Shown: piece by piece, positions 28,159 to 31,494 of the stretch
How positions within the stretch are numbered: position 1 is the first letter of the stretch
How the letters are laid out: every line of letters begins with the position of its first letter
Source of the DNA: Methanococcus vannielii SB
GTDB lineage: Archaea > AGJL01 > Methanococci > Methanococcales > Methanococcaceae
Assembly (NCBI RefSeq): GCF_000017165.1
Contig: NC_009634.1
Span: forward strand, 634,249 to 698,248
DNA: 64,000 nt
Direction of reading: 5' to 3'
Notes under the pieces: generated by a model
Seen by the model: the letters and a program-made list of their open reading frames with translations, nothing else
The model's database searches: none
Told to the model about the DNA's origin: nothing
Translations under genes and position numbers: made by a program

Positions 28159-29322
28159 TTATTGTGTTGAACAGGGCTTTCCTAAAAGTGGGGGCTCTTT
28201 ATCATCCACTCCTGGGCGGTACCCAAATTCATCTTTTGCACTTTCCTGGACTTTATGGAATATCCTTGCAACTGGAATTTCCATTGGGCATACGTCTTCA
28301 CATTGTCCGCAGTTTACACAGCTAAATGCCATGTGTGACATTCTAACTCCTTGAAACATTATTGGATTTGGAGGAATTTCTCCACGGTCAATATATTCTG
28401 CTTCAAGTGCACATTCTTTACAGAAACATACTGGACATGCATCTCTACATCCATAGCACTTTATACACCTGCTCCAGTATTCATTCCACTTTTCAAATGA
28501 TGGGTAATCGTCTTCAAGCCATTTTTTCTTATATTCATCGCCCATCTTTAACATTGAAGCCTCTACCTTAGCCCTTAACTCCAGTCCTTTTGAATTAGGG
28601 GTTTTTTTCTTAATATAGCCTTCTTTTTCTGCATCTTCAATTAATTTTTTACCTTTTTCACTGCATACTTCAATAAACGTGTACTTTCCAGACTCTTCTC
28701 CAATTACTCCCCAGTTTCCTGCTGCAAGGTCTGCTTTCCTAGGGATTTTTTCATCACATCTCTGGCAGTTTATCCGTCTTCCATAGCCATTATCTTCAAG
28801 GTCGTGCATTTTAACTTCTTTATGGGTTCCGTCTTTTAATACAATTATAAACTTACCCTTGTCTATTTCTTCCTTTATAACATCCTTAGGGTCAACTTCA
28901 TAGAATAATTTTATCATTTCAATGGCCACTTTTGGAGGAACGGTTCCCCCGCAATTTAAACCAATCATGTAAATATTATCCAAATTGATTTGAGCTCTTT
29001 TTGAAAGCTCAACTATAGCCCTCATGTCGCAAGGTTTTACCGGAACCGCAAGTTTTACGTCTTTTAAATAGTCTTTAATTATTCCGCCCCACATTGTCGG
29101 AGCACAGTGCAGTGATCCTGCAGTATTTATCAAATCATCCGAAGATGTTACAAATGCAGGTATTGCATCATAAACGTCTGCCCCTTTTTTTAAGGCAAGT
29201 ACTCCATCTACGATATTTTTATCCAAAAGGTATTTAAAAAGTGCAGTAACTGCACCGCCACACTCTCCTTTTTCAAGTATTGCAGGATCTGCTGCCTGTA
29301 CATAGTACATTTCATTGCTCAT
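28159..29322 (-). CDS. fdhB: F420-dependent formate dehydrogenase, beta subunit
   Basis: A 387-residue FrhB/FdhB-family protein. The N-terminal half is the F420- and FAD-binding region ([47 protein letters not shown]). The C-terminal part has two ferredoxin-like [4Fe-4S] sites, [19 protein letters not shown] and [16 protein letters not shown]. It passes electrons from the FdhA molybdo/tungstopterin subunit to F420. It follows fdhA by 29 bp and ends 3 bp from the convergent pfkC, so no 3' UTR is available between the two genes. Confidence 0.93.
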
Positions 29323-29351: not shown

Positions 29352-31376
29352 CTATAATTTCTCCACTTTCGCAGCACATACTTTATATTCCGGGATTTTA
29401 CAGTTAGGATCAAGTGCAGGGTTCGTTAAAATGTTAGCTGCGGTTTCTGCAAAGTGGAATGGCATAAATATAACACCTTGCTTAATATTTGGGGTAATTT
29501 TTGCGTTTACAACCACTTCGCCCCTTTTTGTAGATACTTTAATTTTTTCTTTATTTTTAATCTTTAGAACCTTTGCATCGTCAGGGTGAATCTCAACAAA
29601 TCCTTCATCTATTTCATCAGACATGTGCTTACTTCTTCTTGTCATTGTACCCGTGTGGTAGTGGAAAATAATTCTACCAGTCGTTAGTGTAAGCGGGTAT
29701 TCTTGATTTGCCATCTCATCTGGATCTTTATATTCGACTGCAAATATATTCCCAAGACCATCAGGTGTTAAATATTTCTCACAGTGAAGTATAGGCGTTC
29801 CAGGATCATCTAATGTTTTACATGGCCAGTGTAGTCCATCAACACCAAGTCTTTCGTAAGTAACGCCACCATATTGTGGAGTAACCTTTGAAATTTCATT
29901 AAATACTTCTTCAGGAGTATTGAAGTTAAATAAATCCCCTTGACCCATCTTTTCAGCAATCATCTTTACAATCTTCCAGTCTTCGATTGCTTCACCGGGT
30001 GCGTCAACAGCTTTTCTTATCCTTTGAATTCTCCTTTCAGTATTTGAGAAAGTTCCATCTTTTTCTGCCCAGGAAGCTCCAGGTAACACAACATCTGCAA
30101 GTTTTGCGGTTTCAGTTAAGAATATATCTTGAACTATTAAAAAATCAAGGCTATTTAATGCATGTTCCACGTGGTGAAGGTCTGGATCTGAAACCATTGG
30201 ATTTTCACCAAGAATATATATACATTTTACTTGTTCACCCGCCTTAGAGAGCATATCTGGAATTGAAAGTCCAATTTGGCAATCAACTGGCGTATTCCAA
30301 GTTTCTGCAAGTTTTTCATGATTTAGTGGAATAGGTTGGTATCCCGGAAATACATTTGGAAGTGCACCCATGTCACATGCACCTTGAACATTATTTTGCC
30401 CCCTTAACGGGTTTACACCTGTTCCGGGTTTTCCCATGTTTCCAGTGATCATTGCCAAGTTACAACAACATTTTACGTTATCTACCCCATGAATAAACTG
30501 AGTTATACCCATACAGTAGAGTATTGTTGATTTTTCTGCGCTTCCATACATTTTTGCAGCTTCAATTATTAATTCAGGAGCTACACCGGTAATTTTAGAT
30601 ACGTATTCTGGAGTATATTTTTCAAGGGTTTTCTTCAATTCATCGTACCCTTTTGTCCTGTTTTTTATAAATTCATCATTTGTAAGCTTTTCATTTATAA
30701 TTACATGCATTACTCCGTTTAAAACTGCTGCGTTTGTACCTGGAAGTAATTGCAAGTATAAATCGGCCTGTTTTGCAGTTGGAGTATACCTTGGATCAAC
30801 TACAACGACCTTTGTACCTTTTTCTTTTGCACGAATAACCCTTCTTGCAACAAGCGGGTGTTGTTCAAACGTATTTGAACCTATTATAAATATACAATCT
30901 GCTTGTTCTATATCAGAAATTGAATTTGTCATAGCACCTGAACCAAAAGCTTGCCCTAAACCGACCACAGTTGCTGAGTGTCAAAGTCTTGCACAGTGGT
31001 CAATATTATTGGTCTTCATTACTGTTCTTGCAAATTTTTGAAATACGTAATTATCTTCATTGCTACATCTTGCAGATGAAAAAAATCCGATTTCTTCTGG
31101 AGAATAATCCTTTAATTTACTTGAAATCAAATTTAGAGCTTCTTCCCATGATGATTCAACCAATTCTCCATTTTTTCTAATTAATGGAGTTTTTAGTCTA
31201 TCTTCACAGTGTACAAACTCGTGACTGTAGCTTCCCTTAATACAGGTTTTTCCCTCATTTACCGGATGTCGTTTGAATGGATTTGTCCCAACTAGTTTTC
31301 CATCCTTTACAACGAGATCCAAACCGCAGCCTGTACCGCAGTAAGGGCATATCGTATGAATGAATTCCACGTTCAT
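29352..31376 (-). CDS. fdhA: Formate dehydrogenase alpha subunit, selenocysteine-containing
   Basis: A 674-residue catalytic subunit of the molybdopterin oxidoreductase family. The N-terminal [4Fe-4S] ligands are Cys10, Cys13, Cys17 and Cys45 (CPYCGTGC ... TCIKG). At codon 132 an in-frame TGA follows HCARL and precedes [15 protein letters not shown], exactly where formate dehydrogenases carry selenocysteine; with it the frame is open to the stop at 29352. Pterin-binding regions include [34 protein letters not shown] and [19 protein letters not shown]. It starts at the ATG at 31376 after GGTGAT. A likely SECIS hairpin lies upstream. The SelB factor needed for decoding is also in this window. 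It oxidises formate to CO2 and forms a complex with FdhB. Confidence 0.95.
30981..30983 (-). other. UGA selenocysteine codon of fdhA
   Basis: On the minus strand this is TGA, codon 132, in the context HCARL-U-HSATVVG. The match to formate dehydrogenase on both sides, without loss of frame, excludes an ordinary stop or frameshift. Confidence 0.93.
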
Positions 31377-31425
31377 TAATCATCACCGTTAAATTATGTG
31401 TGACACCTTTTGGTTTTCAGTTAAA

Positions 31426-31456
31426 GATTAGTATTCCAAATTAGTTCATACTAATC
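31426..31456 (-). ncRNA. Candidate SECIS element in the 5' leader of fdhA
   Basis: Minus-strand RNA folds as GAUUAGUAU (9 nt), then GAA, then CUA-AUU-UGG, then A, then AUACUAAUC (9 nt): a perfect 9-bp lower helix (10 with a G-U), a GAA/A asymmetric internal loop, a 3-bp upper helix (C-G, U-G, A-U) and a 3-nt loop. This is the archaeal SECIS plan, except that the upper helix is normally GC-rich. It ends 49 bases before the fdhA ATG. In M. jannaschii fdhA the SECIS is also in the 5' UTR (recalled). Neither the 29-bp fdhA-fdhB gap nor the region after fdhB offers another place. Confidence 0.7.
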
Positions 31457-31494
31457 CATTTGTGCTATAATTATTGTGTGCTATTTTCAATTTT

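Follow-up and report, generated by a model that had tools for sequence, protein, structure and literature searches.

Analysis of the fdhA1 locus of Methanococcus vannielii SB points to a small hairpin in the 5′ leader as the archaeal SECIS of this selenoprotein gene, delivered past the UGA codon by two flanking arms that dock onto the open reading frame (ORF), an explanation that as a whole is very probably correct. The fdhA1 leader hairpin and the folding idea are already known from published work. The strong covariation of the hairpin and of the leader:ORF arms among orthologues is new comparative evidence for docking, drawn from aligned sequences. The whole 64,000-nucleotide stretch of DNA that was analysed is referred to as the window, and all features of the locus are collected in Table 1.

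Table 1. Features of the fdhA1 locus (window positions) and of the fdhA2 candidate.
Feature	Position	Strand	Remarks
SECIS hairpin (proposed)	31426..31456	(-)	9-bp lower stem, GAA/A kink-turn-like loop, weak 3-bp apical helix, AUU loop; from fold, window scan, covariance model and covariation in 21 orthologues
5′ docking arm UUAUAGCAC	31462..31470	(-)	complementary to fdhA1 ORF GUGCUAUGA at 30929-30937
3′ docking arm AACCAAAAG	31407..31415	(-)	complementary to fdhA1 ORF CUUUUGGUU at 30941-30949
ORF target of 5′ arm	30929..30937	(-)	UGA+46..+54
ORF target of 3′ arm	30941..30949	(-)	UGA+34..+42; peak of synonymous conservation across four Methanococcus fdhA1 genes
fdhA1, formate dehydrogenase alpha subunit	29352..31376	(-)	674 residues with Sec132
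UGA selenocysteine codon 132 of fdhA1	30981..30983	(-)	context HCARL-U-HSATV
fdhB, beta subunit	28159..29322	(-)	starts 29 bp after fdhA
fdhA2 in-ORF hairpin (candidate), M. vannielii	L160:4494-4534		same place in L154-L159

The M. vannielii genome (1,720,048 bp) encodes tRNA-Sec and a UGA-containing selD, and homologues of FdhA1 have C or U at the position of U132 (Sec/Cys position). An earlier note, made from the sequence of the window, had proposed a 5′-leader archaeal SECIS for this in-frame UGA. Its coordinates and hairpin architecture (9 bp, GAA/A, 3-bp upper helix, 3-nt loop) were reproduced by sequence and fold, as were the distance of 49 bases from the hairpin to the start codon (31376) and the numbering of the UGA as codon 132. 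The note had also stressed that the 3′ side has no room, and the distances are as it gave them, with the end of fdhB lying 3 bp from the convergent gene. The SECIS probably occupies the 5′ leader because fdhB takes up the 3′ side; according to a 2010 review, the long distance to the 3′ end may account for the 5′ location (PMC2933860).

The hairpin RNA (minus strand, 31456–31426) reads GAUUAGUAU GAA CUA AUU UGG A AUACUAAUC. Its lower helix of 9 bp contains no mismatch, the minimum lower stem for SECIS activity being 3 bp (PMC11881835), and the GAA (31447–31445) faces a single A in the asymmetric GAA/A internal loop typical of methanogenic SECIS elements. The possible upper helix consists of C-G, U.G and A-U, closed by a 3-nt AUU loop, and had been named as the weak point of the proposal. 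This was confirmed: the apical helix is the weakest among 21 orthologues, the U.G at the second pair occurs in M. vannielii alone among 19 distinct sequences, and the GC clamp that is usual, although not absolute, in methanogenic SECIS elements is absent. The hairpin stretch has a minimum free energy (MFE) of −8.1 kcal/mol (z −4.15), with the GAA/A form 1.5 above it at −6.6 kcal/mol and the three apical pairs occupied at 7–10%, values given by a nearest-neighbour model that is blind to kink-turn stabilisation and returns low values for some other members too (G002, G029). In the fruA SECIS a double A-U apical clamp abolished function (PMC11881835). The weaker M. vannielii helix is presumably still functional.

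Scanning both strands of the 64-kb window gave 60 GAA/A hairpins, among which only the one at 31426–31456 folds at −6 kcal/mol or below and only this one has a lower stem of at least 9 pairs. It likewise came first in the window with a covariance model trained on other SECIS elements and not on the M. vannielii hairpin (14.7 bits, with a modest E of 0.34; next match 11.6), which was one of the checks that the earlier note had suggested. Rfam offered no fitting model for the hairpin region, all matches being at chance level.

Just upstream of the hairpin lies a perfect 43-bp tandem repeat in two copies with a TATA-like box (window:31495–31580); the 7-mer that forms the core of the 5′ docking arm, ATAGCAC, recurs in both copies. 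A non-coding segment at window:31630–31755, lying between fdhA and the carbonic anhydrase gene, is conserved at 82–85% identity in three further Methanococcus genomes; it has no distinctive fold and matches nothing in Rfam.

A protein search of 36 Methanococcales genomes yielded 24 UGA-containing fdhA1-type genes, of which 21 possess the leader hairpin (one with a 16-nt loop), the internal loop being GAA in 20 and CAA/A in one. The earlier note had called a 5′ element acting over about 440 nt unusual: 5′ placement is indeed rare among methanogen SECIS elements (PMC11881835), but for Methanococcales fdhA1 it is the norm, and a linear action over 440 nt is unnecessary since the flanking arms can pair just past the UGA. 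The hairpin core without its loops, both flanks and the ORF target of the 21 species were aligned without gaps, the register of the flanks being set by the leader motifs GCAC (before the hairpin) and CC[AG]AA (after it), a choice that is slightly biased in favour of pairing. In this alignment 90.6% of cells are paired, and two-sided changes were counted in 65 cells, affecting 14 pairs, versus 17.5 ± 4.1 after shuffling and 3–12 in slid controls. The five innermost pairs of the lower stem are 100% paired over all 21 species, and four of them have changed on both sides, so that the leader alignment which the earlier note had recommended does reveal compensation around a nearly constant GAA/A. 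Eight pairs of the long 3′ arm also show compensated changes. The leader changes match in the lineages that encode ACFGS for EAFGS (G001, G004, G014), and G002 and G014, whose fdhA1 sequence types differ, both encode one glycine by GGA, with U for C in both leaders.

A blind two-arm scan of the whole ORF, which is free of the register bias because it was not told where to look, gave UGA+28..+55 as the best pairing site in 19 of the 21 species, and in 14 of the 21 genes none of 200 codon shuffles was as good. Pairing of the leaders with their own ORFs scored 448, against 408 ± 6.3 with foreign ORFs and a maximum of 435 in 20,000 permutations. The hairpin is flanked on both sides by arms whose ORF targets lie about 43 nt past the UGA. 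For the M. vannielii ORF scanned alone, the best two-arm match falls at UGA+34..+54, a modest result that 6 of 200 codon shuffles equal. Three ORF bases separate the two arm targets in fdhA1, and an unconstrained partition function for the M. vannielii gene assigned a pairing probability of 1.00 to both arms, 0.99 to the lower stem and 0.10 to the apical helix; the same three-way junction appears in the MFE fold of a 581-nt stretch. Arm pairing would put the M. vannielii hairpin 43–46 nt past the UGA.

Published work names no methanogen SECIS predicted in a 5′-UTR other than that of fdhA1 (Peiter et al. 2025, PMC11881835). The element from M. maripaludis JJ is active in vivo (β-lactamase reporter: 428 vs 22 mU/mg without SECIS), a SECIS moved into the 5′-UTR still works in the reporter, and flanks of 7 and 10 nt complementary to the ORF were reported as conserved in Methanococcales and missing from M. 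voltae (PMC11881835). The M. vannielii and JJ elements share the orthologous gene, the position, the GAA/A hairpin, the ORF-pairing arms and docking 43 nt past the UGA (PMC11881835), but JJ has CC/GG in the apical helix whereas M. vannielii has the weaker C-G, U.G, A-U and its own arm sequences. The reporter activity of this orthologue supports the 5′-leader SECIS of the earlier note.

Arms complementary to bla did not raise reporter activity: mRNA fell three-fold and activity per mRNA rose two-fold (PMC11881835). The reporter constructs also function without complementary arms (PMC11881835), and archaeal SECIS elements tolerate distances of 520–679 nt (PMC9622424). These observations would suit a SECIS that acts linearly, its arm:ORF pairing serving mRNA stability, a ribosome roadblock or translation control instead. 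We consider this unlikely, though worth keeping in view, as the pairing always brackets the hairpin, its best match falls at UGA+28..+55 in 19 of 21 genes, and the same arms that cut the mRNA doubled the activity per mRNA.

The two remaining readings, which deny the hairpin its role, are far less probable. Decay of the M. vannielii SECIS, with another element of the transcript doing the work, would fit the weak apical helix, but the perfect 9-bp stem and the arms have been retained, and the better SECIS elsewhere in the transcript that the earlier note had named as grounds against its proposal did not turn up: no other match in the window exceeds 11.6 bits, and the runner-up among the GAA/A hairpins of fdhA/fdhB is much weaker and lacks conservation. 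This leaves decay as a very improbable explanation. An inverted repeat acting as a DNA operator, or as the terminator of the upstream carbonic anhydrase gene, would be unrelated to UGA decoding; the A+T-rich, promoter-like region and the 43-bp tandem repeat just upstream speak for it, but the constant GAA/A with compensatory changes, the conserved arms pairing with ORF RNA and the SECIS activity of the orthologue in vivo (PMC11881835) make this reading extremely unlikely.

According to the preferred reading, a docked SECIS, the two arms flanking the hairpin would pair after transcription with coding sequence about 30–55 nt past the UGA, and the resulting three-way junction would place the SECIS 43–46 nt past the codon. 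There an archaeal SECIS-binding factor may recognise the GAA/A motif, with SelB bringing Sec-tRNA-Sec. Judged by usual footprint sizes, a ribosome paused at the UGA would not yet be at the duplex, which would allow presentation of the SECIS directly in front of the ribosome. Docking of this kind probably takes place in cells and helps recoding.

The putative 5′-leader SECIS of Methanocaldococcus jannaschii fdhA was named by the earlier note as the precedent for a leader position. The Methanocaldococcus-type genomes examined share the fdhA gene, the leader position and the GAA/A hairpin with M. vannielii, but their apical helices are richer in GC, and most have a longer, bulged lower stem and 3′ arms of 15–17 bp. 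Canonical euryarchaeal 3′-UTR SECIS elements (fruA, vhuD, selD) have the same kink-turn-like GAA/A between two helices and were found by the same scan and model, but they lie 3′ of the ORF, without reported docking arms. The bacterial SECIS also follows the UGA and lies at the coding region, as the docked fdhA1 element or the fdhA2 candidate described below would, but it has no sequence or structural relation to these, directly adjoins the UGA and is bound by SelB itself (PMC2933860).

Relatives with a UGA but without the hairpin, which the earlier note had named as a result that would count against it, do occur in part: the fdhA1 genes of three M. voltae-like genomes have neither leader hairpin nor arms, and the UGA paralogue fdhA2, found in 7 of 7 Methanococcus genomes examined, lacks the leader hairpin in each. 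The proposal stands nonetheless for fdhA1, where 21 of 24 genes keep the hairpin, and the exceptions have in-ORF candidates (good in fdhA2, weak in the M. voltae clade).

For the M. voltae-clade fdhA1 (L161–L163), neither the pattern scan nor the covariance model found a 5′ or 3′ SECIS in about 10 kb each. A small GAA/A hairpin at UGA+78 (AGAA GAA GCA GAU UGC A UUCU), identical in the three species, ranks above every other GAA hairpin of the gene in all of them, yet 3–7% of recoded genes equal it, and its lower stem is only 16–58% occupied. It is no more than suggestive of a possible replacement SECIS.

Other observations were made in these genomes. The M. voltae-like fdhA1 leaders (G018:C1:602305, G019:C5:73251, G020:C3:195275) carry a near-invariant AAAGATGTTAGCGGTGGCATCTTTA, once per genome, which may be an operator or an RNA element. 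The fdhA2 of this clade has a second in-ORF hairpin, AAA/A, at UGA+210, found in three close relatives only. In G015, which has genes for UGA selenoproteins, no tRNA-Sec passed the cut-off and there is no vhuD with a UGA; a missing stretch is likely, since tRNA-Sec and vhuD are close together in relatives.

In fdhA2, the pattern scan identified a GAA/A hairpin inside the ORF at UGA+107..+147 in all seven species, with 8–10 lower pairs and a GCW/WGC upper helix, of the form CAAUACUUUU GAA GCW-loop11-WGC A AGAAGUAUUG. This hairpin is absent from fdhA1. In each species it outranks every other GAA hairpin of fdhA2 and is equalled in 0–2 of 300 synonymous recodings, and it lies in the part of the gene with the highest synonymous identity (9 of 12 codons identical, vs 30% overall). 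It is also predicted to form in context (lower stem 0.87–0.96, upper helix 0.72–0.81), with direct covariation amounting to one compensatory pair, U-A/A-U in the upper helix. The pattern scan found no 5′ or 3′ SECIS for fdhA2, and the covariance model gave no convincing match in the loci of ~10 kb, so that all seven genes combine a UGA with a GAA/A between two helices and no other SECIS. The same model matched 8 of 9 selD, fruA and vhuD control loci, some of whose sequences were in the model. The in-ORF hairpin itself is unmatched by the canonical model at E ≤ 10, having a GCW/WGC clamp rather than CC/GG and an 11-nt loop rather than a short one, and it is because of this mismatch that we call it a candidate only. 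An Ala and a Ser specific to fdhA2, which make hairpin pairs, are present in 7 of 7 sequences versus 0 of 58, and are given little weight because conserved columns of fdhA2 show 14 further fixed changes. In the M. vannielii fdhA2, moreover, an A7 run (L160:5424–5430) contains one A more than in the other six species and shifts the frame by +1, which may reflect a pseudogene, phase variation or a sequencing error.

Whether fdhA2 is decoded by a SECIS inside its own ORF is in our estimate evenly balanced, together with the wider idea that archaeal Sec insertion favours a signal tens of nucleotides past the UGA, reached either from within the ORF (fdhA2, possibly also M. voltae fdhA1) or through 5′-leader docking (fdhA1). 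No report of a coding-region SECIS in Methanococcus was found in the openly accessible literature searched, and the fdhA2 candidate is possibly new here.

Archaeal SECIS elements have been described as 3′-UTR signals, with fdhA1 as the sole exception. The leader:ORF covariation provides comparative evidence that this exception is a hairpin brought past the UGA by RNA docking, a point that the reporter data had left open. If the in-ORF hairpin of fdhA2 is a true SECIS, the position of the SECIS in Archaea would be more flexible than the literature searched states.
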